Source of the DNA: Chthonomonadaceae bacterium
GTDB lineage: Bacteria; Armatimonadota; Chthonomonadetes; Chthonomonadales; Chthonomonadaceae
DNA length: 59,962 nt
Assembly (NCBI GenBank): GCA_027450145.1
Contig: DAIDKH010000020.1
Location: 1 to 59,962 of the forward strand
Direction of reading: 5' to 3'
Part shown: positions 1 to 33,185 of the stretch, piece by piece
Position numbering within the stretch: the first letter of the stretch is position 1
Layout: every line of letters starts with the position of its first letter
Notes under the pieces: model-generated
What the model was told of the DNA's origin: nothing
Databases searched by the model: none
Seen by the model: the letters and a program-made list of their open reading frames with translations, nothing else
Program-made: the position numbers and the translations under genes

Positions 1-3000
1 CGAACTCGCTGATGTGAACCGAGTCCATGAACACGCACTGGCCAATCTTTGTGCCGAAGAGGCGCAACAAGGGCAGGATGAAGGGTGTGCCAGTAAGGCT
101 TCCAATTAGAGCCGGCACAGCCACATTTTCGTAAAGAGCAGTGATCAGCTCTGTACGCCACACGAAGTTGCTCCAAAGTGGATGCTCTCCGGGAACGTAC
201 GTTCCGATTACCAGCCACTTGGCGGCGGCGACTGCAAGCACGACGGCCAATGCGATTCCCAAACCAGCCAGCGGTGCGCCTAAGACCCAACCGGCAACCG
301 TATCATGAGCGATAAGCTGTCGCAGTACCTCAAACCACACGGCCAGGCCTGTAAACATAAATGTGGGTGGCAGTAGGATGCGGCACAACTCAATGGTGCC
401 ACGCTGAATATACAACCACTTCGTGGGCTTGTAGGTACGGGCTGCAGGGAACTGCCGCGACTCCTGACGCCTCGGTAATACCATGGCGGGCGATCCCAAC
501 CACGACGTATTCTCCACGATTTCGTCACGGGCAAGGGGAGGTACTGACATGCATCCTACGAGACATCCATCAGGAATGTCATCGCCCGAGGGTATGAGGG
601 CACTATTGCCAACGAAAGTCTTCGCACCTACGGTAGTGGGGCGAACCTCAATGACTCCTCGTCGAATAGAGACTGCTCCAATGGATGCAGCATCAGCTAC
701 AAAGCATCCTTCACCTATTTCCAACATATCGGGAACCAGGTGCGATGCGGTCGATACCTCCGCGTGTTTCCCAATCTGTGCGCCCATTAGACGAAGCCAG
801 GGGGGCAAATAGATCGTTGCATACATAGCTTGGTTAAGCTGTAGGCTAAGCTGCACGATCCGATCCTGGAACCAGCGGCGCAGAGCGAAGCGGCTAAGGG
901 CTGGATACCTGCCTGCAGGGGTGCGGCCAGTTGCGCGGCTAAGGCCAGCAAGCATCAGCGGGAACAGCACAGCCCATAGTATAGCGGAGATAGGAGCCAT
1001 TGCACAGGCTCCCAATACCCCGTGATTTTCAAATGCCCAATAGAGAATCGCTACAGAAGGCAACGACACTGCCAGGAGCGCTAGATCGATGATGGTGAGT
1101 AGACCAATGGCTATTAGGCTAAATTGCACGTACCTTTTACCAGGACTGCGGTACACAACGTCGTGTTGTTTGGTTCGTTCATCGTCCCGTTTTGCGGGAG
1201 ATCCGCTCCACCACTGACCCTCGGGTACTTTCTGGCCTGCGGCTAGGAAGGATTGGTCATGAAGTGAACCACGCGTTTCGACGGCACTGCCTGGTGCGAG
1301 GTTAGCATTGTGGCCGACATAAGCGTCCTGTCCTATTGCGGTGCTGTCAATGACTAAATAGCCGTTCTCCACCACTGAGCCCATTACGTGTGCGTCAAAA
1401 CCTACAGAGGCACCACTACCGATGGTGATAAGGTCGAAGTTAAAGATGAACCCGGTATCGATGTGTGCATCAAGGGCAACGTTCGCACCCATCAATTTCA
1501 GGTAGAGAGGAAAGAGCGGCGTACCGGTAAGAAAGCCAACTCCGGCGAAGCCCTGCATTTTTCTTACAAACCACCAGCGTAAATAATAACCAGACCAGAG
1601 CGGGTACCTTCCTGGCTTGAAGCGACCAATAACGGTCCACTTGGCTGTAATCGCCAGTAACATGTTGACTGGCAGCAGCACCAGAGATGTCACAACAAGC
1701 CCGACGAGCGGCAGCAACCTGCCTGTGCCAGGGTCTTTCAAAACCAGTTCCAGCAGGCGTACCGGTATGCTCACTTCAAGAGCGACGATAATTGCCATGA
1801 CAAAGAGCAGCGCCGCCTGTACCGCACCGGCAGCCCTGTAGTGCCACAATCGATTTACGGCGTGGTCATGCTGTTCGTGCGGACGGCTTTCTGTCTCCAC
1901 GCTGCGCCGCTCCTCCAGGCGTGTCGCAAGCTTACGCACTGAGGGGGCGGCATAGATATCAGAAACTGCTACGTCTTCGAAGCCACTTGCGCGGCGCAGG
2001 TCGCTTACGACGATTGCCGCAAGCAGAGAGTGCCCTCCAAGATCCAGAAAGAAATCTGCATCGGGACTCATCGTAGGTGACTGAAACGCTCTGCTCCAAC
2101 ACTCTGCAATGACAGCTTCGGTAGGACTCATGAGAAACATAGCCGCATCGTCCCGCGTGATAACCGGTCGTGGAAGGCGCTTTCTATCGACCTTTCCGCT
2201 TGCCAGCGTAGGTATCTCGTCAATGAGGTCAATAGTAGCAGGAACCATAAATGCAGGCAATTTTACGCGAAGCGTCTCTTTTATTTGCGGAAGATTCGGT
2301 ATAGAGTCTGGACGGGCAGTAACATAAGCGGCAAGCTGCTCGACACCTGGGGCATGTTCAATAAGAGACACTACTCCATTCGCGACACCCTCCATTGAGC
2401 GAAGAACTGTTTCAATCTCGGTGAGCTCAATGCGATATCCGCGAAACTTGATCTGGTCATCGACGCGGCCCAGAAATCGTATATTGCCGTCCTCATCCCA
2501 GGCAGTTAGGTCACCGGTTTTATACAATCGATCAAAGCCTGGAGCATCAGCGAATGGGTTAGGGATAAACCGTGCAGCTGTTAGCTCTTCCCGACCAACG
2601 TATCCACGCGCTATACCGGCACCGCACAGGTGCAGCTCTCCGGGTTGTCCAATGCCTAGTGGCTGGCAGTTCTCGTCGAGTATAAGCGCCCCATAATTGG
2701 GCAAGGGTTTTCCTATCGTTACAGGCCTTTGAGGGTGGCATTCTGCCCATGTCGCAATTACGGTTGCCTCAGTGGGACCGTACGTATTAAGAATTCGCAT
2801 TGATGGCTTCCACCATCGCGCGATCAGGTCCGGTGGGCACGCTTCGCCGCCTAGAATAAGCAGGCGGAGAGTCTTAATGTCGTCCTCCATAGCGGCGAGG
2901 AGCGTAGGAACACATGAAAGTATGGTAATGCGTTGGTTAGTGAGTTCCGTACCTAGAGACGGACCGGAGCGCATCAGTTCGCGACTGCCAACCACCAGCG

Positions 3001-3715
3001 TAGCGCCAGAGCCAAATGCCAGCCACACTTCCTCTACAGCTGCATCGAAAGCAACGGAAAAGCCCTGCAGCACGCGGTCAGATGGAAGGGGACGATAAAT
3101 CTCGGCGGAAACTCGCACCAGGTTGCAGGCATTGCGGTGTTCAATGAGTACGCCCTTTGGCCGCCCGGTCGAACCTGAGGTGAAAATGACGTAGCAGGCT
3201 TCGTTCCAATGCGAATGAGTGTCTACGGCGCACGGTCTTGCGCTGCTGCATGCGGTAATTTCTCCGCTGCAGTAATCGACTTTAACGGTCGGGCAATCTA
3301 GATTATTGTAAGGTTTGCATGCACCTGAAGATGTTACCAGTACAACGGCACCGCTATCCTGTAGAATGGCGGAAACTCGGGTTTCAGGGTACTCGGGGTC
3401 TATGGGAACGTAGGCCGCGCCGCACTTTAGGATGGCGAGCTGTGCAATGTAAACATGAGCACAACGCTCGAGCAGAATAGCGGCGAATTTACCTGGGCCA
3501 ACACCCTGCGACTTAAGGTAATGGGCTAGCCTGTTGGCCGCCACTTCAACCTGTTGGTACGTATACTGGCGTCCATTATCGTCTATGGCCACGTTGCCAG
3601 GGTACAAATCTGCAGTCTGCTCAAAGATCTGATGCAAAAGTTCTTGCCGGCATAAAAGTGGGTCAATAGTGCCGAAAGATCGGCTGTTGCTTAATTGATT
3701 TATATTCGTAGTCAT
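1..3715 (-). CDS. Pls/PosA-type NRPS-like synthetase, 3' end off window
   Basis: Open frame from the ATG at 3715 with no stop before the left edge, so at least 1238 residues. An adenylation domain fills residues ~1-510: core A3 motif TSGSTGRPKGV near residue 180 and an A8-type motif (GYRIELTEIE). A carrier domain follows, with the phosphopantetheine Ser563 in DLGGHSLL. There is no thioesterase and no canonical condensation domain. The rest alternates hydrophobic membrane segments (about 640-705, 855-920, 1110-1180) with hexapeptide-repeat, left-handed beta-helix-like stretches (about 740-825 and 975-1075). This A-PCP-membrane/hexapeptide order is that of the Pls/PosA family, which includes epsilon-poly-lysine synthetase. 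The product is probably a membrane-made amino-acid homopolymer or acylated amino acid; the substrate cannot be read here. The gene stands alone in the visible part. Confidence 0.88.
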   Translation of the reverse strand, partial: MTTNINQLSNSRSFGTIDPLLCRQELLHQIFEQTADLYPGNVAIDDNGRQYTYQQVEVAANRLAHYLKSQGVGPGKFAAILLERCAHVYIAQLAILKCGAAYVPIDPEYPETRVSAILQDSGAVVLVTSSGACKPYNNLDCPTVKVDYCSGEITACSSARPCAVDTHSHWNEACYVIFTSGSTGRPKGVLIEHRNACNLVRVSAEIYRPLPSDRVLQGFSVAFDAAVEEVWLAFGSGATLVVGSRELMRSGPSLGTELTNQRITILSCVPTLLAAMEDDIKTLRLLILGGEACPPDLIARWWKPSMRILNTYGPTEATVIATWAECHPQRPVTIGKPLPNYGALILDENCQPLGIGQPGELHLCGAGIARGYVGREELTAARFIPNPFADAPGFDRLYKTGDLTAWDEDGNIRFLGRVDDQIKFRGYRIELTEIETVLRSMEGVANGVVSLIEHAPGVEQLAAYVTARPDSIPNLPQIKETLRVKLPAFMVPATIDLIDEIPTLASGKVDRKRLPRPVITRDDAAMFLMSPTEAVIAECWSRAFQSPTMSPDADFFLDLGGHSLLAAIVVSDLRRASGFEDVAVSDIYAAPSVRKLATRLEERRSVETESRPHEQHDHAVNRLWHYRAAGAVQAALLFVMAIIVALEVSIPVRLLELVLKDPGTGRLLPLVGLVVTSLVLLPVNMLLAITAKWTVIGRFKPGRYPLWSGYYLRWWFVRKMQGFAGVGFLTGTPLFPLYLKLMGANVALDAHIDTGFIFNFDLITIGSGASVGFDAHVMGSVVENGYLVIDSTAIGQDAYVGHNANLAPGSAVETRGSLHDQSFLAAGQKVPEGQWWSGSPAKRDDERTKQHDVVYRSPGKRYVQFSLIAIGLLTIIDLALLAVSLPSVAILYWAFENHGVLGACAMAPISAILWAVLFPLMLAGLSRATGRTPAGRYPALSRFALRRWFQDRIVQLSLQLNQAMYATIYLPPWLRLMGAQIGKHAEVSTASHLVPDMLEIGEGCFVADAASIGAVSIRRGVIEVRPTTVGAKTFVGNSALIPSGDDIPDGCLVGCMSVPPLARDEIVENTSWLGSPAMVLPRRQESRQFPAARTYKPTKWLYIQRGTIELCRILLPPTFMFTGLAVWFEVLRQLIAHDTVAGWVLGAPLAGLGIALAVVLAVAAAKWLVIGTYVPGEHPLWSNFVWRTELITALYENVAVPALIGSLTGTPFILPLLRLFGTKIGQCVFMDSVHISEF

Positions 3716-3919
3716 TGCGTCATCGTAGACGAGAAATCTCAGTAAAAGTTCAGAAGTAGAACAGGAACGTTAAAACAATGTTATTGTACCCAATTCCGTG
3801 AGTCGAAGCGATTATTTGTAACTATAAACATTATTGGCAGAATTCGATACAAACAGCATAAATACCGATAGGCAATATGGTTATACGTAATAGTTCATCG
3901 GCGTGGCAGCATCGGAAGA
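3716..3919. other. AT-rich intergenic region
   Basis: This stretch lies between the NRPS-like start and tRNA-Cys. It should hold the upstream region of the leftward NRPS-like gene. I see no ORF with a ribosome binding site and no convincing promoter pair. Confidence 0.5.
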
Positions 3920-3990
3920 GGGGCCGACCAGAATCGAACTGGTGATCGCGGTTTTGCAGACCGCTCCCTTAGCCACTTGGGTACGGCCCC
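3920..3990 (-). tRNA. tRNA-Cys (GCA)
   Basis: The reverse strand folds as a tRNA with a 7-bp acceptor stem GGGGCCG/CGGCCCC, T-loop GTTCGATTC and anticodon loop CTGCAAA, giving GCA. The 3' CCA is not encoded, as for the other tRNAs in this window. It is followed on the same strand by nothing within 200 bp and preceded by tRNA-Gly 26 bp upstream, so the two are probably co-transcribed. Confidence 0.95.
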
Positions 3991-4016
3991 GAGGTACACG
4001 AGAGAAGAGATCCTAA

Positions 4017-4087
4017 GCGGGAGACGAGGTTCGAACTCGCGACATCCAGCTTGGGAAGCTGGCGTTCCACCACTGAACTACTCCCGC
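4017..4087 (-). tRNA. tRNA-Gly (CCC)
   Basis: Acceptor stem GCGGGAG/CTCCCGC, anticodon stem CCAGC/GCTGG with loop TTCCCAA (anticodon CCC) and T-loop GTTCGAACC. It reads GGG codons. The 3' CCA is not encoded. It lies just upstream of tRNA-Cys on the same strand. Confidence 0.95.
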
Positions 4088-6615: not shown

Positions 6616-7752
6616 TCACGCGCTCTGGCTGCCGGCAGAGCGTTTTGTTTGCCGCTCTGCTATGGCCTTCGCGTTCACTACGACGTAATTCTCCGCTCGG
6701 TGTAATAACTTGCCCAGACGCCCACTTACGCCGCGTTCTGAGCGGAGGATCAGGATACGCTGATTCATTCTATGTTCACTGCACCAGTGATATTTGTATG
6801 CTTCATGCCCTCTTAAGAAATCAAACTCGTGACAGTCCTCTAGTATTGCCTGCCTAACAGCTGCCGCGGTAACGAGCATACCTGGGCTATATTTGTGATG
6901 GTCGAGGCTGAAGCCACCCAGGTAGTAAAACGTCCGGCCGTTTAGTGCGTAGCAATAGAGGGCTCCTACTACCTGACCGTCTGCTTCCAGCAGGTGCAAA
7001 CGCAACCAGCCATTAGCAAGAAACCGTGCGGCAGAATTACGATGTAGTTTCTGGACCTTTTCCAGTGCAAGTGCTCCCGGCAGACTGCGGGATCGCCACC
7101 GCTTTTGGTGTAGATCAAATAGCGTCGTAAGATCTTGATCCAACGATTGCTCAGTTGCCATTCGGTACTGCGTGGGACCTAATTCGCGATTTAGCAGCCG
7201 ATCGTAATAACCCAAATTATATCTAAACTTCTTCGAAAACGTCGCAGTAAGTTCTGTCCAGCTACCGGGCAGCGCCAGAAACGGGCACGGTTCAAGAGGA
7301 GCCACAGAACAGCATTCGGATACCTGCGTGGCCCGTCGCACCATAGCTGCCTTCTCTGGAAGTTGCTGAAGGTCTGCTACGTCCCACGATCGGGTGCCCT
7401 CGCTTAGGTGCTCAAGGAGCAGTCGGCAAACTTCGTCCTCATATTCTGGAAGTGCAAGAGGCTTCAGGTAGTCACTGGGTCCGGTACCTACCCAAGATAA
7501 TCGCCGAAGCGGAGTACCGAGATAGGGCGAGACGCAGAATGGTGCTAAACCAACCAGATCACCGCTCTCGTTGTGGAACATCACAAGGTGCATACGTCGC
7601 CGGGATCCATAAAGCGTCCACCAAGTATCGTTCCACTCCCACGTTTGCCACGGTGTTGCCGTAGTGCACCTACCTTGTAATGAGGTCCACTCGGATTGTA
7701 AATCTTTAATGGCGTCGTGGTCGACAGCTGTGCTAATCCTCAAATGACACAT
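6616..7752 (-). CDS. CelD/BcsL-family GNAT acyltransferase
   Basis: A protein of 378 residues with no signal peptide. It has the duplicated GNAT/FemAB-like architecture of the CelD/BcsL family: an N-terminal half containing WQTWEWNDTWW and LVGLAPF, and a C-terminal half with GALYCYALNGRTFYYLGGF followed by FDFLRGHEAYKYHW, the latter being a hallmark of this family. Such proteins are linked to exopolysaccharide or cellulose loci and are thought to acylate sugars. The gene is the first of a two-gene unit with the GT4 gene, 13 bp away, which supports a role in surface glycan synthesis. Confidence 0.82.
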   Translation of the reverse strand: MCHLRISTAVDHDAIKDLQSEWTSLQGRCTTATPWQTWEWNDTWWTLYGSRRRMHLVMFHNESGDLVGLAPFCVSPYLGTPLRRLSWVGTGPSDYLKPLALPEYEDEVCRLLLEHLSEGTRSWDVADLQQLPEKAAMVRRATQVSECCSVAPLEPCPFLALPGSWTELTATFSKKFRYNLGYYDRLLNRELGPTQYRMATEQSLDQDLTTLFDLHQKRWRSRSLPGALALEKVQKLHRNSAARFLANGWLRLHLLEADGQVVGALYCYALNGRTFYYLGGFSLDHHKYSPGMLVTAAAVRQAILEDCHEFDFLRGHEAYKYHWCSEHRMNQRILILRSERGVSGRLGKLLHRAENYVVVNAKAIAERQTKRSAGSQSA

Positions 7753-8096
7753 CCCACGTTAAATAGTCTAATCTGCTCAAACTAATCTCTAATTTGGGAT
7801 TATAGTCTTTATAATATTAGAGTGTCAAGTTAGGGAAGCAACTGTCCTGGTAAATTACCATGGCTTATAACCTCAACGAAGTAGGATTTTCGATTTACTG
7901 CCTATCTCCTAATGCTTGAAGGAGGTCTACCTGTGACCGTGGTGTCTATCGGTTTGAGCAACCAAGAATCAGATTCGCAATAATCGGCAGGATATCAAGC
8001 GAGACTGGATTAACAATAGTCACCAATACGCAGACGCTGTGGCAAGCTGCACACTATCGAGCGCGACTGAGAAATTTATTGTATGGAGTACCGCCC
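7753..8096. other. Divergent intergenic region with a possible 16-residue ORF
   Basis: This stretch separates two divergent genes and must contain both promoters. It has an AT-rich core near 7795-7822 (TATAAT-like on both strands), but no -35 box at good spacing. At 7933-7983 (+) a GTG-started ORF of 16 codons follows GGAGG with 7-bp spacing and ends 113 bp before the PhyH gene. It could be a leader peptide, but its residues (MTVVSIGLSNQESDSQ) are not those of an attenuator. Confidence 0.4.
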
Positions 8097-8906
8097 ATGA
8101 GCGTACCGACCATGTTTTTGACCAATGAGCAAGTGGAGTTCTACCACCGTGAAGGTTACCTGGTAATAGAGAATGTTGCCCCACCTGATGAGATTGAGCG
8201 AATGAGGCAGATTTACGACGACCTATTTAGCCGGAAGGTTGGTCGAGAAGAGGGGAACCAGTTTGATCTGGCAGGAACTGACGAGGACGACATTGAGGCT
8301 AGTCTGCCCCAAATATTGGGTCCATCACGTTATGCACCCGAATTAAAGCAAGCCCATTGTGTTGCAAATGCGTTGGCGATTGCAAAACAACTGCTTGGCT
8401 CAGATGCGGCCAGTACAGGTGATCATGCTATTCTTAAGCCTCCATTCCACGGTGCCTCCACTCCTTGGCATCAGGACGAAGCTTACTGGTCTCCGGATTG
8501 GGACTATAATAGCTTCAGTCTTTGGCTGCCATTGCAAGACGCTACCATAGAAAATGGTTGCCTGCAATTTGTGCCGCGAAGTCATAAGTTAGAGGTGCTG
8601 CCACACCACAGTATAAACAACGATCCACGTATTCACGGCCTTGAGGTGGACGAAGCGGATTTAGGTGGCGTAGTTGCGTGCCCAATTAAGGCAGGAAGCT
8701 GTACAGTGCACCACAACAGAACATTGCACTACGCTGGACCAAATAACTCGCCCACTCCGCGACGCGCCTACATAATGGGATTCAGCTGCCCTGGCGTTAG
8801 GCGCACAGTCCCCCGTTCGTTTCCCTGGAATGAAGCTAAGAGGACTCCGCGTCAGGAGAGGGCGGCGCGAGCGGTAACGACGGGCGAGGCGCAACAGACC
8901 GAATAG
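8097..8906 (+). CDS. PhyH-family Fe(II)/2-oxoglutarate dioxygenase
   Basis: I place the start at the ATG at 8097, behind TGGAGTA with suitable spacing; an in-frame TTG 18 bp earlier lacks one. The 269-residue protein is a phytanoyl-CoA dioxygenase family member. The facial triad is visible as His125-x-Asp127 in PWHQDEAYW and His211 in NRTLHYAGPN, with an Arg in SPTPRRAY able to hold 2-oxoglutarate. Bacterial PhyH proteins hydroxylate lipids or secondary metabolites; the substrate is not predictable here. The last 71 bp overlap, antisense, the end of the membrane-protein gene. Confidence 0.9.
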   Translation: MSVPTMFLTNEQVEFYHREGYLVIENVAPPDEIERMRQIYDDLFSRKVGREEGNQFDLAGTDEDDIEASLPQILGPSRYAPELKQAHCVANALAIAKQLLGSDAASTGDHAILKPPFHGASTPWHQDEAYWSPDWDYNSFSLWLPLQDATIENGCLQFVPRSHKLEVLPHHSINNDPRIHGLEVDEADLGGVVACPIKAGSCTVHHNRTLHYAGPNNSPTPRRAYIMGFSCPGVRRTVPRSFPWNEAKRTPRQERAARAVTTGEAQQTE

Positions 8907-10947
8907 GCTGCCAGCACAATGCATACCACGTGGTGCTGACAGTGGCCGATCCTAGTGCAAATACCACTGTCACTATGCCGGAGTCCTTGGTAATAAGAGC
9001 GGCGCTCATGGTCCACAAGAGTGCCTTCCATCCCAATGCCAGGTCTTGATGAATGAATGCTGCCTCAGCTATTTGCTGTTTAAACGTCAAAAACATAGCG
9101 GCGCTGAATGCAATCGTTATGGATGCGGCTATCAGCAACCAGTGCGATACGCTAAGGTGCAGGTTCATCTGGATTTTGCGGATGATGATCTGGCCAAGAT
9201 ATGCCAAGCCGCGCGAGCCAGCAGCGGTGGTAAGTGCCATACCGGCGTGCGAAACATCGGGTCCACCTAACCAGGCATCAGCAGCGGCAAATGCAAACGC
9301 GAGTGCGAAACCCGCGCAAATACTTGCTAAGAAAGCACCAATTCCGAACTTTCTACCTGTTGCCGGTAAAAGCAGCGACGCGGCGGCAACGGTGTCTACT
9401 ACCACACTACCAGCGTTGGCGCCCCAACCTGGCCACCCGAATATGGCAATTATGAAAATATAAAATACGACAAGTTTGGCTATGCTACATCGTCCCGTAG
9501 ATAGCGCCAATCCACCGAGTGGCAGAGTGACCATTCCCAAAACCACTCCGAGGTATTCGTTGCCGATGCCGTAATAACGGATGCCGCTAAGCGCATATCC
9601 ACCCAGCATAGCATTCCTTATGAGCCGCCCACCAGTGATCAGGTCAATGGCCAACATGGCCAAGAACACTCCAGTGACGACCGTGGTGCCTGGCCGATTA
9701 GTTTTGTCTGCGATGACCGAAGCGATGAAACCAGCGCTAACCATTATCCCGGCGATTTGAAAACCGTAAGATGTAAGATTGCCTGCATGGAACAGTGGCG
9801 CAATGAGGAGCGCCATTGGAAGCGATAAGGCGCTTAGCAGTATCCAGTTCGTCAGCCTCCACGCGCGCTTCCATTGTGATTGCGCCAACATAGACGCAAC
9901 GACTATTACAATGGCAATCATGGCCAGGGGTAGCATGATCCTGACGGTGCCAGCACCGTTTAGCAGTGCGAGTTTGTCATTGTACGTAATCTGCTTAATG
10001 GTTCCACTTCCCGATCGATTCGAAACGAATTGCAGCTTACGCCCTGTGGTGAATGGGGGAACATGGGTGCCAAGGAAGCCTAGAATGGTAGGCTCAATAT
10101 CGGTGTCAGAGACTAGTCCGTAAGTACGGGTGGTTGGCGAGTAGATCTCTCCTGGTGGAACGCTGTCCCCACTAATAACCAGCAGGACAAGCCGGCGCCA
10201 CTGGGCTGGCAGCGGCATCGTTGGAGTTGCTGTGAGCCCAAGAAGAATAATCGTGGATTGCAGGTGAAGTGCTTTGGATTGCTGTACTAGGGCTGCCGCA
10301 AGCGCCGCTCCTGTGATGCCGTCGTGCGAACCAGGTGATGCAGCACTAACCACGGTGAGACCCTGCGGAGACATCAATATGTTGGATGCAGCGACCAGTG
10401 CTGATGAGGTGCGCAAAGGGAACAACGAGCCACTCACAATCCCACGCTCATTGGTGGCGAGTATTGCTGCCTGGCGACTGAAGGTCCTGTCGCGGGTGAC
10501 CGAAACGAAACGGCTACTAAGTGCGGAGTGTGACGCCTCAATGAGCGTATTCGGTAGCTGATTTAGAAGGTGTCTACTCTCTAATAGGGCTATTTGCGGA
10601 CAGACCAGCACGTTTTTAGGAGGCAAATTTGTATAACCTGTGCGTCTACAGTAGATCTCACCAGCGGTCGCTTGGTGCCCAGGATATAGCTCGGAAGGTT
10701 GATAGAACCCATGGAAGCCGTCTGGCATGGTAACCTCGTTACCCGCGGCTACAGTAAAAAGCACCCGTCGCCAAGAGCGCCTTACTGGCGTAGCCGTGTT
10801 CATGAGAGCGGCGCTGCTGGCGCGAACCATGCGCCGCAAAGCAGACCCCGCTGAACCGGTGAGGTCACCGGCATCCAGGCGCTTACAGACGACTAGAACG
10901 ACTAAAGGAGCGGCTGGAGGCAGCAGGGATTGAGCTGCTGCTGCCAC
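8836..10947 (-). CDS. Polytopic membrane protein with AlkP-like extracytoplasmic part
   Basis: At least 703 residues. The N-terminal ~310 residues look extracytoplasmic and end in GLVSDTDIEPTILGFLG, which resembles the segment near the C-terminus of alkaline-phosphatase/sulfatase folds (TDxxPTIL), though no catalytic Ser/Thr motif is visible. About ten membrane helices follow, with a characteristic stretch GIRYYGIGNEYLG near residue 470. The coordinates use a GTG at 10947, but the open frame continues upstream without a stop and encodes a classical signal peptide (KR, then LHVILLVFAAC, then AAAAQ) that starts about 11010, at the end of queF, without an ATG, GTG or TTG. The function is unknown. 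A transport or envelope-modifying role is only a guess. Confidence 0.7.
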   Translation of the reverse strand: MAAAAQSLLPPAAPLVVLVVCKRLDAGDLTGSAGSALRRMVRASSAALMNTATPVRRSWRRVLFTVAAGNEVTMPDGFHGFYQPSELYPGHQATAGEIYCRRTGYTNLPPKNVLVCPQIALLESRHLLNQLPNTLIEASHSALSSRFVSVTRDRTFSRQAAILATNERGIVSGSLFPLRTSSALVAASNILMSPQGLTVVSAASPGSHDGITGAALAAALVQQSKALHLQSTIILLGLTATPTMPLPAQWRRLVLLVISGDSVPPGEIYSPTTRTYGLVSDTDIEPTILGFLGTHVPPFTTGRKLQFVSNRSGSGTIKQITYNDKLALLNGAGTVRIMLPLAMIAIVIVVASMLAQSQWKRAWRLTNWILLSALSLPMALLIAPLFHAGNLTSYGFQIAGIMVSAGFIASVIADKTNRPGTTVVTGVFLAMLAIDLITGGRLIRNAMLGGYALSGIRYYGIGNEYLGVVLGMVTLPLGGLALSTGRCSIAKLVVFYIFIIAIFGWPGWGANAGSVVVDTVAAASLLLPATGRKFGIGAFLASICAGFALAFAFAAADAWLGGPDVSHAGMALTTAAGSRGLAYLGQIIIRKIQMNLHLSVSHWLLIAASITIAFSAAMFLTFKQQIAEAAFIHQDLALGWKALLWTMSAALITKDSGIVTVVFALGSATVSTTWYALCWQPIRSVAPRPSLPLAPPSPDAESS

Positions 10948-31706: not shown

Positions 31707-32444
31707 CTACTCATCTGCCTCTGAGCCAAAGAGCTTGACGGCGTTGTCGTATAGTATTCGCCGGCGATCGTTTGGCCTTACATTGGAATCGTCCAGGAGG
31801 CCCATAAAGGCCATTGGATCGCACACAGGAAGACCACTGCCGAAAATGAGCCGGTGAGCACCAATGGCCTCAATTGCTGCTGGTATCTTTCTTACATCAA
31901 GGGCACCAGAAATATCAAGGTAGATATTGGAGTTCTGGTGTGCGGCCGCCACTGCAGCATCCCAATCCTGTCCACCCATGCTAATGAGCACGAAGCGATG
32001 CATTGTATAGGATCGCGCAAGATCAAGCGCGGCCGCTACGCATGCCGCGTTTGGAGAATAAACGTAAACCGGCTTTTGGTACCTGCGGCAGCCGTTCAAT
32101 ATTTCGTCGGCGATCAGCGGGTTCAACGGCTCAATAGGGTTACTGCCTGCCAGCATCACAGCTACAAACCGCTTGCTTCCAAGATGTTCCTTAATCGAGT
32201 CAAGAGATGCCTTGGGCCTCCCTAGGTGCGCCGTTACGCAACCAAGTAAAGAGGGGTTCATGTCTAGCACAGACTTTAGAATGCGATTACCCGCAATAGG
32301 ATCAACCATCGCAGCCCGAGCGGAGCGAGCTACTGCGATGTCAATGCCACGTTCTGTTAGCAGCGCTGATAGGTCTTGCGCAGTATGGAATTTGCCTGGA
32401 ATAACACTGCCCTCAAGCACAATGTTGCTATCAATGGTCGGCAA
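31707..32444 (-). CDS. Amidohydrolase-2-like TIM-barrel protein, metal motif absent
   Basis: A 245-residue protein of the amidohydrolase-2 type by its pattern of alternating strands and helices and its C-terminal HRLIFGSGLPVCDP, which matches the strand-8 region RIVFGSGAP of its neighbour. The N-terminal DxHxH metal motif is replaced by TIDSNIVLEG, and no His pair is visible near the start. It could be a metal-free lyase/hydrolase, or a regulatory or structural partner. It follows its paralog by 12 bp in one operon. Confidence 0.68.
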   Translation of the reverse strand: MPTIDSNIVLEGSVIPGKFHTAQDLSALLTERGIDIAVARSARAAMVDPIAGNRILKSVLDMNPSLLGCVTAHLGRPKASLDSIKEHLGSKRFVAVMLAGSNPIEPLNPLIADEILNGCRRYQKPVYVYSPNAACVAAALDLARSYTMHRFVLISMGGQDWDAAVAAAHQNSNIYLDISGALDVRKIPAAIEAIGAHRLIFGSGLPVCDPMAFMGLLDDSNVRPNDRRRILYDNAVKLFGSEADE

Positions 32445-32456
32445 TTTAGTGTTCTC

Positions 32457-33185
32457 CTAATAGCCCAGTAGACGGGCAGCGTTTCCACCTTGAATTCGGT
32501 CGAGAGTGGAGGCTGAAAGGCCTGAATATTGCAGCGTTTGCAGAGTTCCTGCAATAGAACGGAGTGGGGCGCCGCTTCCAAAAACGATCCGTTCGTCGCC
32601 AACAACCTCCGCTAGGTACCTTAGGCTGCCGGGTGCGAGCAAGTGAGAGGTCTCAATCATCCAGCCAGGGTGGTGGCGCATGACCGCCGCAGCCTCTGCG
32701 AGTAGCGCAGGTGTAACGTGAGCAAGAATCACCGTACCTTTAAATGCCGCGGCGACCTTCGAAAGTCGAGTCATCTGACCGGGCGTCAATATATCCACCA
32801 TCACGGGTAAAGGCGCAGGACAGTCGTTGATAACTTCAAGCATATCGGCAAACGGCGCGTAATCCGCTGGCCAATGTTGAAGATCTGGAAAGAACCGGAT
32901 TAACTTAAATCCAGAATCGCGCAATGCTTGCAATGGGGTCGCATCACCGTAATACGAATTGGGATTGCAGGTTGCTACCGGAATCAATACCCCCTCATCG
33001 CCACACGTAACGCGGGTTTGGGCATTTCCAACACCTGTGTCCATTAAAATACCGACGGTAGAAATTGTGCATGCGCGTGCTATATTGTGCTTCTGCATTA
33101 AGGTTTGCAGGTCATCCAGCGATAGATCGGCGTTCAACGCTGGTAGTGACCCGAAAAGGGTGTTAATATCGATAATTTGGTGCAT
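32457..33185 (-). CDS. Amidohydrolase-2-like TIM-barrel protein, paralog
   Basis: A 242-residue paralog of the downstream gene. It starts MHQIIDINTLFG, where amidohydrolase-2 enzymes have DxHxH. Strand motifs FKLIRFFPDLQHW, VILAHV and ERIVFGSGAP match the family's barrel, including the 'cluster of Asp/Gly' near the end but with Gly-Ser-Gly rather than the usual metal-binding Asp. It is first in the pair, 33 bp downstream of gltX and on the same strand, so it may be co-transcribed with it. Confidence 0.7.
   Translation of the reverse strand: MHQIIDINTLFGSLPALNADLSLDDLQTLMQKHNIARACTISTVGILMDTGVGNAQTRVTCGDEGVLIPVATCNPNSYYGDATPLQALRDSGFKLIRFFPDLQHWPADYAPFADMLEVINDCPAPLPVMVDILTPGQMTRLSKVAAAFKGTVILAHVTPALLAEAAAVMRHHPGWMIETSHLLAPGSLRYLAEVVGDERIVFGSGAPLRSIAGTLQTLQYSGLSASTLDRIQGGNAARLLGY

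Follow-up and report, generated by a model that had tools for sequence, protein, structure and literature searches.

A Pls/PosA-family synthetase with a predicted lysine-specificity pocket at a contig end of a Chthonomonadaceae genome

The stretch of DNA analysed here, referred to as the window, comprises 59,962 nucleotides from a Chthonomonadaceae bacterium and is exactly one contig of its assembly (DAIDKH010000020.1; contig G000:C20, bases 1-59962). At its left end lies a gene for a large membrane-bound enzyme that resembles non-ribosomal peptide synthetases (NRPSs) and belongs to the Pls/PosA family; its coordinates and those of the associated features are collected in Table 1. The open reading frame (ORF) begins with an ATG at position 3715, is intact and remains open at the left end of the window, and since the first base of the window is the contig end, the 3' end of the gene is missing. 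In the remaining part of the synthetase we found a pocket from which L-lysine is predicted as the substrate.

The encoded protein contains a single AMP-binding domain (residues 31-372, E 3.8e-78) with its C-terminal subdomain at residues 433-508, followed by a single carrier (thiolation) domain, the phosphopantetheine serine of which is present in all 43 family members compared (43/43 rows). Residues 632-1238 match TIGR02353, the NCBIfam model “Pls/PosA family non-ribosomal peptide synthetase”, with 466.5 bits and hence exceed the curated cut-off of 423.1 bits despite the cut end; the match stops at position 614 of the 695 model positions because the contig ends. A complete relative (L030, see below) matches positions 2-695 of 695 with 606.2 bits. 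Even at E 5, Pfam models revealed no thioesterase (TE) in the C-terminal region of either the window protein or the complete L030 protein, and at E 0.01 the window genome, which is 97% complete, has no match to PF00975 (thioesterase) or to PF00668 (condensation). An earlier note made from the letters of the window had described one adenylation and one carrier domain, no thioesterase and a Pls/PosA (TIGR02353) type of synthetase, and each of these statements holds; no unrelated C-terminal family was found in the window protein or in L030, both of which lie above the TIGR02353 cut-off. The C-terminal domain, the adenylation and thiolation domains (A and T) with the carrier serine, the lack of condensation (C) and TE domains, and the six membrane helices and three hexapeptide-type segments described below together place the protein in the Pls/PosA family. 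The matches of the window protein within its own genome include one other adenylation protein of 519 residues, plus weaker ones.

A scan of genome contigs found two relatives. One of them (L030, JAJYCW010000061.1) is complete, with 1367 residues and 85% identity to the window protein, while the other (L031, JAJZFK010000129.1) shares 80% identity and is cut at its 5' end. The L030 synthetase stops soon after the TIGR02353 match and the third hexapeptide segment, and a redoxin-like gene comes next. Contig C111 of the window genome carries the matching C-terminal piece at one end (7476-7850, minus strand), and there too a redoxin gene follows, with 88% identity to that of L030. The earlier note was right that the left part is missing: contig G000:C20 ends inside the gene, the remaining C-terminal piece is on C111, and the next gene in both L030 and C111 encodes a redoxin and not a further NRPS module, the genome having no condensation-domain match at the threshold given above. 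The ends of C20 and C111 show no exact overlap, and at its start the C111 piece departs from the reading suggested by C20 and L030. These two contig ends, each carrying one half of the gene, thus give slightly different readings, perhaps due to strain variation in the assembly.

Table 1. Coordinates of the synthetase gene, its domains and the neighbouring tRNA genes in the window.
Feature	Position	Strand	Remarks
Pls/PosA-family NRPS-like synthetase gene	2..3715	-	ORF, 1238 aa, C terminus cut by contig end
Adenylation domain	2171..3643	-	residues about 25-515
Stretch with nine of ten specificity residues	2756..3046	-	D224 A225 E228 S267 I287 G289 T311 V319 I320
Tenth specificity residue K508 (A10 lysine)	codon 2192-2194	-	
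Carrier (thiolation) domain	1916..2113	-	residues 535-600
Phosphopantetheine serine S563 of carrier domain	codon 2027-2029	-	
Polymerising terminal domain, cut	2..1822	-	TIGR02353 positions 2-614 of 695
Membrane helix pair 1	1640..1840	-	residues 626-660/663-692, hydropathy
Membrane helix pair 2	929..1132	-	residues 862-896/898-929, hydropathy
Membrane helix pair 3	188..379	-	residues 1113-1131/1139-1176, hydropathy
tRNA-Cys (GCA)	3918..3990	-	about 200 bases upstream of start codon; not part of enzyme
tRNA-Gly (CCC)	4016..4087	-	upstream of tRNA-Cys

The C-terminal part is organised around three pairs of membrane helices, which were called from hydropathy only; the window copy has one extra, weaker hydrophobic segment at 1198-1217. 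A hexapeptide-like pattern occurs 18 times in residues 632-1238, compared with 5.2 times after shuffling (none of 500 shuffles as high); residues 1-610, the A-T part, contain it only 4 times, and shuffling gives 4.0 there (272 of 500 as high), so the pattern exceeds chance and is restricted to the C-terminal part. This agrees with the alternation of membrane helices and hexapeptide helices proposed in the earlier note. A profile of 29 C-terminal regions matched 183 distinct Protein Data Bank (PDB) sequences at E ≤0.1, and among the 60 of these that were shown, gamma-carbonic anhydrases and hexapeptide acyltransferases lead. The matches cover the first, second (3r3r, 3tio) and third (3ftt) soluble segments, and the third segment, evidence for which is drawn from the relatives and from contig C111, also matches beta-helix proteins in the PDB when searched alone. 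PF00132 (Hexapep) was matched by 28 of the 29 members at E 0.01; on the window piece alone the match is weak (15.1 bits, cut-off 27), and on L030 it reaches 27.9 or 23.3 bits, depending on the bounds given. The sequence evidence from this family is consistent with the published architecture, in which six membrane helices carry three beta-helices of five turns each (PMC10522769). In a conservation count over 41 rows (L106, a copy of L052, and the partial L107 were left out), a motif in the third segment, Q1256-x-H1258 in L030 numbering, is invariant in all 39 rows that reach it and is present on the C111 piece. We do not claim these residues as catalytic: it is Q1256, not H1258, that overlies a histidine of solved beta-helix proteins in three of four alignments, and in the fourth the position lies outside the coverage.

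The specificity pocket of the adenylation domain was read by carrying the residue spacing of PosA over from D224 and gives the code DAESIGTVIK, which also occurs in L030, L033, L034 and L092. In PosA, the delta-poly-L-ornithine synthetase of Acinetobacter baumannii, the pocket residues include D217, M218, E221, H260, N280, T304, V312 and S313 (PMC10522769), and this D217-S313 spacing fits the window protein without gaps. The solved epsilon-poly-L-lysine synthetase structure 7WEW has the same pocket positions as its near twin from Streptomyces (L057, E 1.2e-262), namely DAESIGTVVK, so that 9 of the 10 positions are identical in the window protein. Similarly, the window code shares 7 of 8 positions with DAESIGSV, the signature of the bacitracin lysine module BacB-M1-Lys (PMC3207962). 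According to PMC10522769, activity depends on the Asp of code position 1 and the Glu of position 3, and position 2 helps to set chain length: lysine-activating members have Ala there, PosA has Met, members using diaminopropionate or diaminobutyrate have Phe and the beta-lysine member has Gly. The M218A exchange raised lysine use nearly tenfold. Because of the pocket match to 7WEW and the bacitracin module, and because of Ala at position 2, L-lysine is the best substrate prediction, which gives a candidate for the product that the earlier note had left open.

Pls of the Streptomyces albulus type, whose A domain is represented by 7WEW, activates lysine by adenylation and keeps it bound to the carrier domain, and its C-terminal part carries out the polymerisation without C and TE domains (PMC8506220, PMC10522769); the window protein shares its layout of an A-T portion followed by six membrane helices with three soluble segments (Pls layout: PMC10522769, PMC8506220). 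Its identity to two plasmid-borne actinobacterial lysine-type members, however, is about 39% in the A domain and 27-30% in the C-terminal part. PosA belongs to the same family and has the same layout, but its pocket, DMEHNGTVSK, is that of an ornithine enzyme. Module 1 of bacitracin synthetase 2, with which the seven signature residues are shared, is part of a multimodular NRPS and, unlike the window protein, lacks a Pls terminal domain. Closer by taxonomy, TIGR02353 relatives with the codes DSECYGGVTK or DGESLGTVGK come from the same phylum, and even from the same taxonomic family, but have other pockets and form separate clades; DSECYGGVTK is described as a Bdellovibrionales code with modest L-arginine activity (PMC10522769).

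To place the pocket in the family, we counted the codes in 43 members: DAESIGTVIK occurs in 5, all from the phylum of the window, and DAESIGTVVK in another 5, all from actinobacterial plasmid records, followed by DFE-type codes (10), DSECYGGVTK (12), DGESLGTVGK (7), DLE-type codes (2) and DMEHNGTVTK (1), with the region missing in one (L031). In a tree of 40 proteins built by a quick method (L106, a copy, and the partial L031 and L107 were left out), every code with at least two rows forms one group, including the window clade (support 88, not starred) and the actinobacterial lysine clade (support 100), each with 5 rows. A single clade of all lysine-type members is absent from the best tree, but constraining the two lysine clades into one costs 11 log-likelihood units and is not rejected by the approximately unbiased (AU) test (p-AU 0.0747). 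Since the joint clade is not rejected, we keep an independent origin of the lysine pocket only as a possibility; lysine-type codes already fall into two groups in the published tree (PMC10522769). In this tree, the first-branching member of the window clade is a protein of 1575 residues (L092:1220-5944, plus strand) with the window's lysine code and about 200 extra N-terminal residues. This extension has a weak match to positions 218-281 of PF00668 (E 6e-4, below the cut-off), as if it were a remnant of a former C-A-T module. We suggest only tentatively, and with more doubt than confidence, that epsilon-poly-L-lysine is made in an uncultured lineage, probably of the Armatimonadota, by a clade of enzymes whose lysine pocket arose independently of actinobacterial Pls, in which L092 retains an apparent condensation remnant, the synthetase being the only NRPS-type system found in the window genome. 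The window genome gave no 16S rRNA match; a type of prepilin leader in L034 would fit Armatimonadota, order Chthonomonadales, to which Chthonomonas belongs.

Domain order, family, pocket, membrane pairs and the kinship of the soluble segments to beta-helix acyltransferases are read directly from the sequence. We consider it likely that the gene encodes an NRPS-like polymerase of the Pls/PosA type that is anchored in the membrane and uses its single module iteratively, with L-lysine as the most likely substrate and epsilon-poly-L-lysine as the most likely product; lysine use, isopeptide linkage, chain length and release are what we infer. Several points weigh against this assignment. No product is known for this organism, and no lysine-pathway, exporter or poly-lysine hydrolase gene was found among the window neighbours scanned with Pfam; unlike here, an M1 peptidase gene adjoins the two plasmid-borne lysine-type members (L057, L103). 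In the best tree the window clade does not group with the actinobacterial lysine clade, Ile occupies code position 9 in place of the Val of 7WEW and L057, and among PDB entries the A domain is matched best by linear gramicidin synthetase and others, with 7WEW ranking behind them. A predicted structure of the C-terminal part (L030 with the window and L031 rows) had a mean predicted local distance difference test score (pLDDT) of 31 and was discarded.

Further points of this kind would also fit an enzyme of the same family and mechanism that uses another basic amino acid, such as ornithine, beta-lysine or a hydroxylated lysine, and makes a different cationic homopolymer. The A-domain identity is slightly higher to DFE-/DME-type members (42-46%) than to the two actinobacterial lysine-type members (39%), the PosA code is closest to that of the bacitracin lysine module and yet the enzyme preferred ornithine (PMC10522769), and a gene for a PhyH-type dioxygenase lies about 4 kb away (8079-8906). 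The dioxygenase gene, however, is on the opposite strand, separated by four genes' worth of sequence and with no shown link to the synthetase, and both the Ala at position 2 and the nine pocket residues held in common with 7WEW speak for lysine, so that we regard a different basic substrate as unlikely.

With lysine as substrate, the adenylation domain would activate L-lysine with ATP, and a phosphopantetheinyl transferase (PPTase) would provide the carrier arm, allowing lysine to be loaded on S563; the genome has two loci of the PPTase family, both on other contigs. Three left-handed beta-helix segments on the six membrane helices would then replace the condensation and thioesterase domains. 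In Pls, the acceptor attacks the lysine on the carrier through its side-chain amine. Likewise, free lysine or the growing chain would here use a side-chain amine to attack the lysine bound to the carrier, and each round would add one isopeptide-linked residue. The predicted product would probably serve as a secreted or surface cationic antimicrobial.

The surroundings of the gene were compared between loci. The tRNA-Cys/tRNA-Gly pair of the window is also found directly upstream of the gene in L030, L033 and L034, while the 8 kb examined around L092 yielded no tRNA. Of 17 genomes of the family, 16 gave a match to the pair, and all 14 scanned loci (L111-L124) contain it; in 4 of 17 loci, examined with flanks of at most about 1.5 kb, the next gene is Pls. 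The pair thus occurs across the family with or without the synthetase. The fixed position of Pls beside these tRNAs in three genera fits a single arrival followed by inheritance. Ten neighbouring genes were tested, including those for a glycosyltransferase, a GNAT protein, PhyH, QueF, a sigma factor, a GGDEF protein and a redoxin, and all ten recur in L030, which is from the same genus, but none was found in the examined stretches of L033, L034, L035 and L092. Because of this absence, and because the tRNA pair is found both with and without Pls, we rejected a conserved operon. Elsewhere in the family, PPTase genes adjoin L054, L061 and L062, and genes for a diaminobutyrate transaminase and an aspartate kinase adjoin L056; none of these, nor an M1 peptidase, is among the window neighbours scanned with Pfam.

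The neighbourhood also bears on the idea that the enzyme transfers a single lysine, or a small number of them, to an acceptor in the cell envelope and makes no free polymer. This would suit the membrane anchoring, the acyltransferase-like segments and two nearby genes, one for a glycosyltransferase at a distance of about 1.7 kb and one for a GNAT protein (Acetyltransf_6) at about 2.9 kb. The characterised members named in PMC10522769, however, make homopolymers, and the neighbours, though kept in L030, were not found in the examined stretches of the other four loci; we consider such a role very improbable. A decayed or mis-assembled gene, that is, a contig end or chimera, is the least credible explanation, for although the gene is cut at a contig end and the start of the C111 piece deviates, the frame is intact, the complete 85% relative and the 5'-truncated 80% relative come from two other assemblies, the same tRNA pair lies upstream in three genera, pocket and carrier serine are kept and the invariant Q-x-H is present on C111.

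Two further observations concern other genes of the window. A 703-residue protein encoded at 8836-10947 (minus strand) has no Pfam match at E 0.001 and shares 56% identity with its counterpart in the same-genus locus (L030:2633-4876), being less conserved than its neighbours. At 31707-32444 and 32457-33185, two adjacent Amidohydro_2 proteins are encoded on one strand, possibly as the result of a duplication.

Among 291 genomes of the phylum, TIGR02353 matches exceed the cut-off in 13, and 25 genomes have a match at E 1.2e-60 or better. A match at E ≤0.001 is present in 201 genomes; in the remaining 176 of these it is no stronger than 1e-13, with short hexapeptide stretches among the matches listed. 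Seven proteins of the same phylum (L036, L037, L038, L093, L094, L095 and L096) carry the code DGESLGTVGK and form one clade; the code was not seen in the parts of the PosA paper (PMC10522769) consulted here, and its Gly at position 2 suggests a larger basic substrate. Two genomes of the window's family have two synthetases each, one with DGESLGTVGK and one with DSECYGGVTK (L037/L039 in G014 and L038/L040 in G007).

The Pls/PosA family is already known from many phyla (PMC10522769). In the literature searched we found no published report of the lysine-code clade of the window, and the word Armatimonad is not mentioned in the main text of the PosA paper (PMC10522769), whose supplementary table lists many codes. 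The window synthetase leaves the understanding of the Pls/PosA mechanism unchanged. Epsilon-poly-L-lysine serves as an antimicrobial and for preserving food, and the Pls/PosA family counts few characterised synthetases. A lysine-type clade from an uncultured lineage, with its fixed place beside tRNA genes, would provide a distant enzyme for expression, and it would constitute a natural test of one versus two origins of the lysine pocket.

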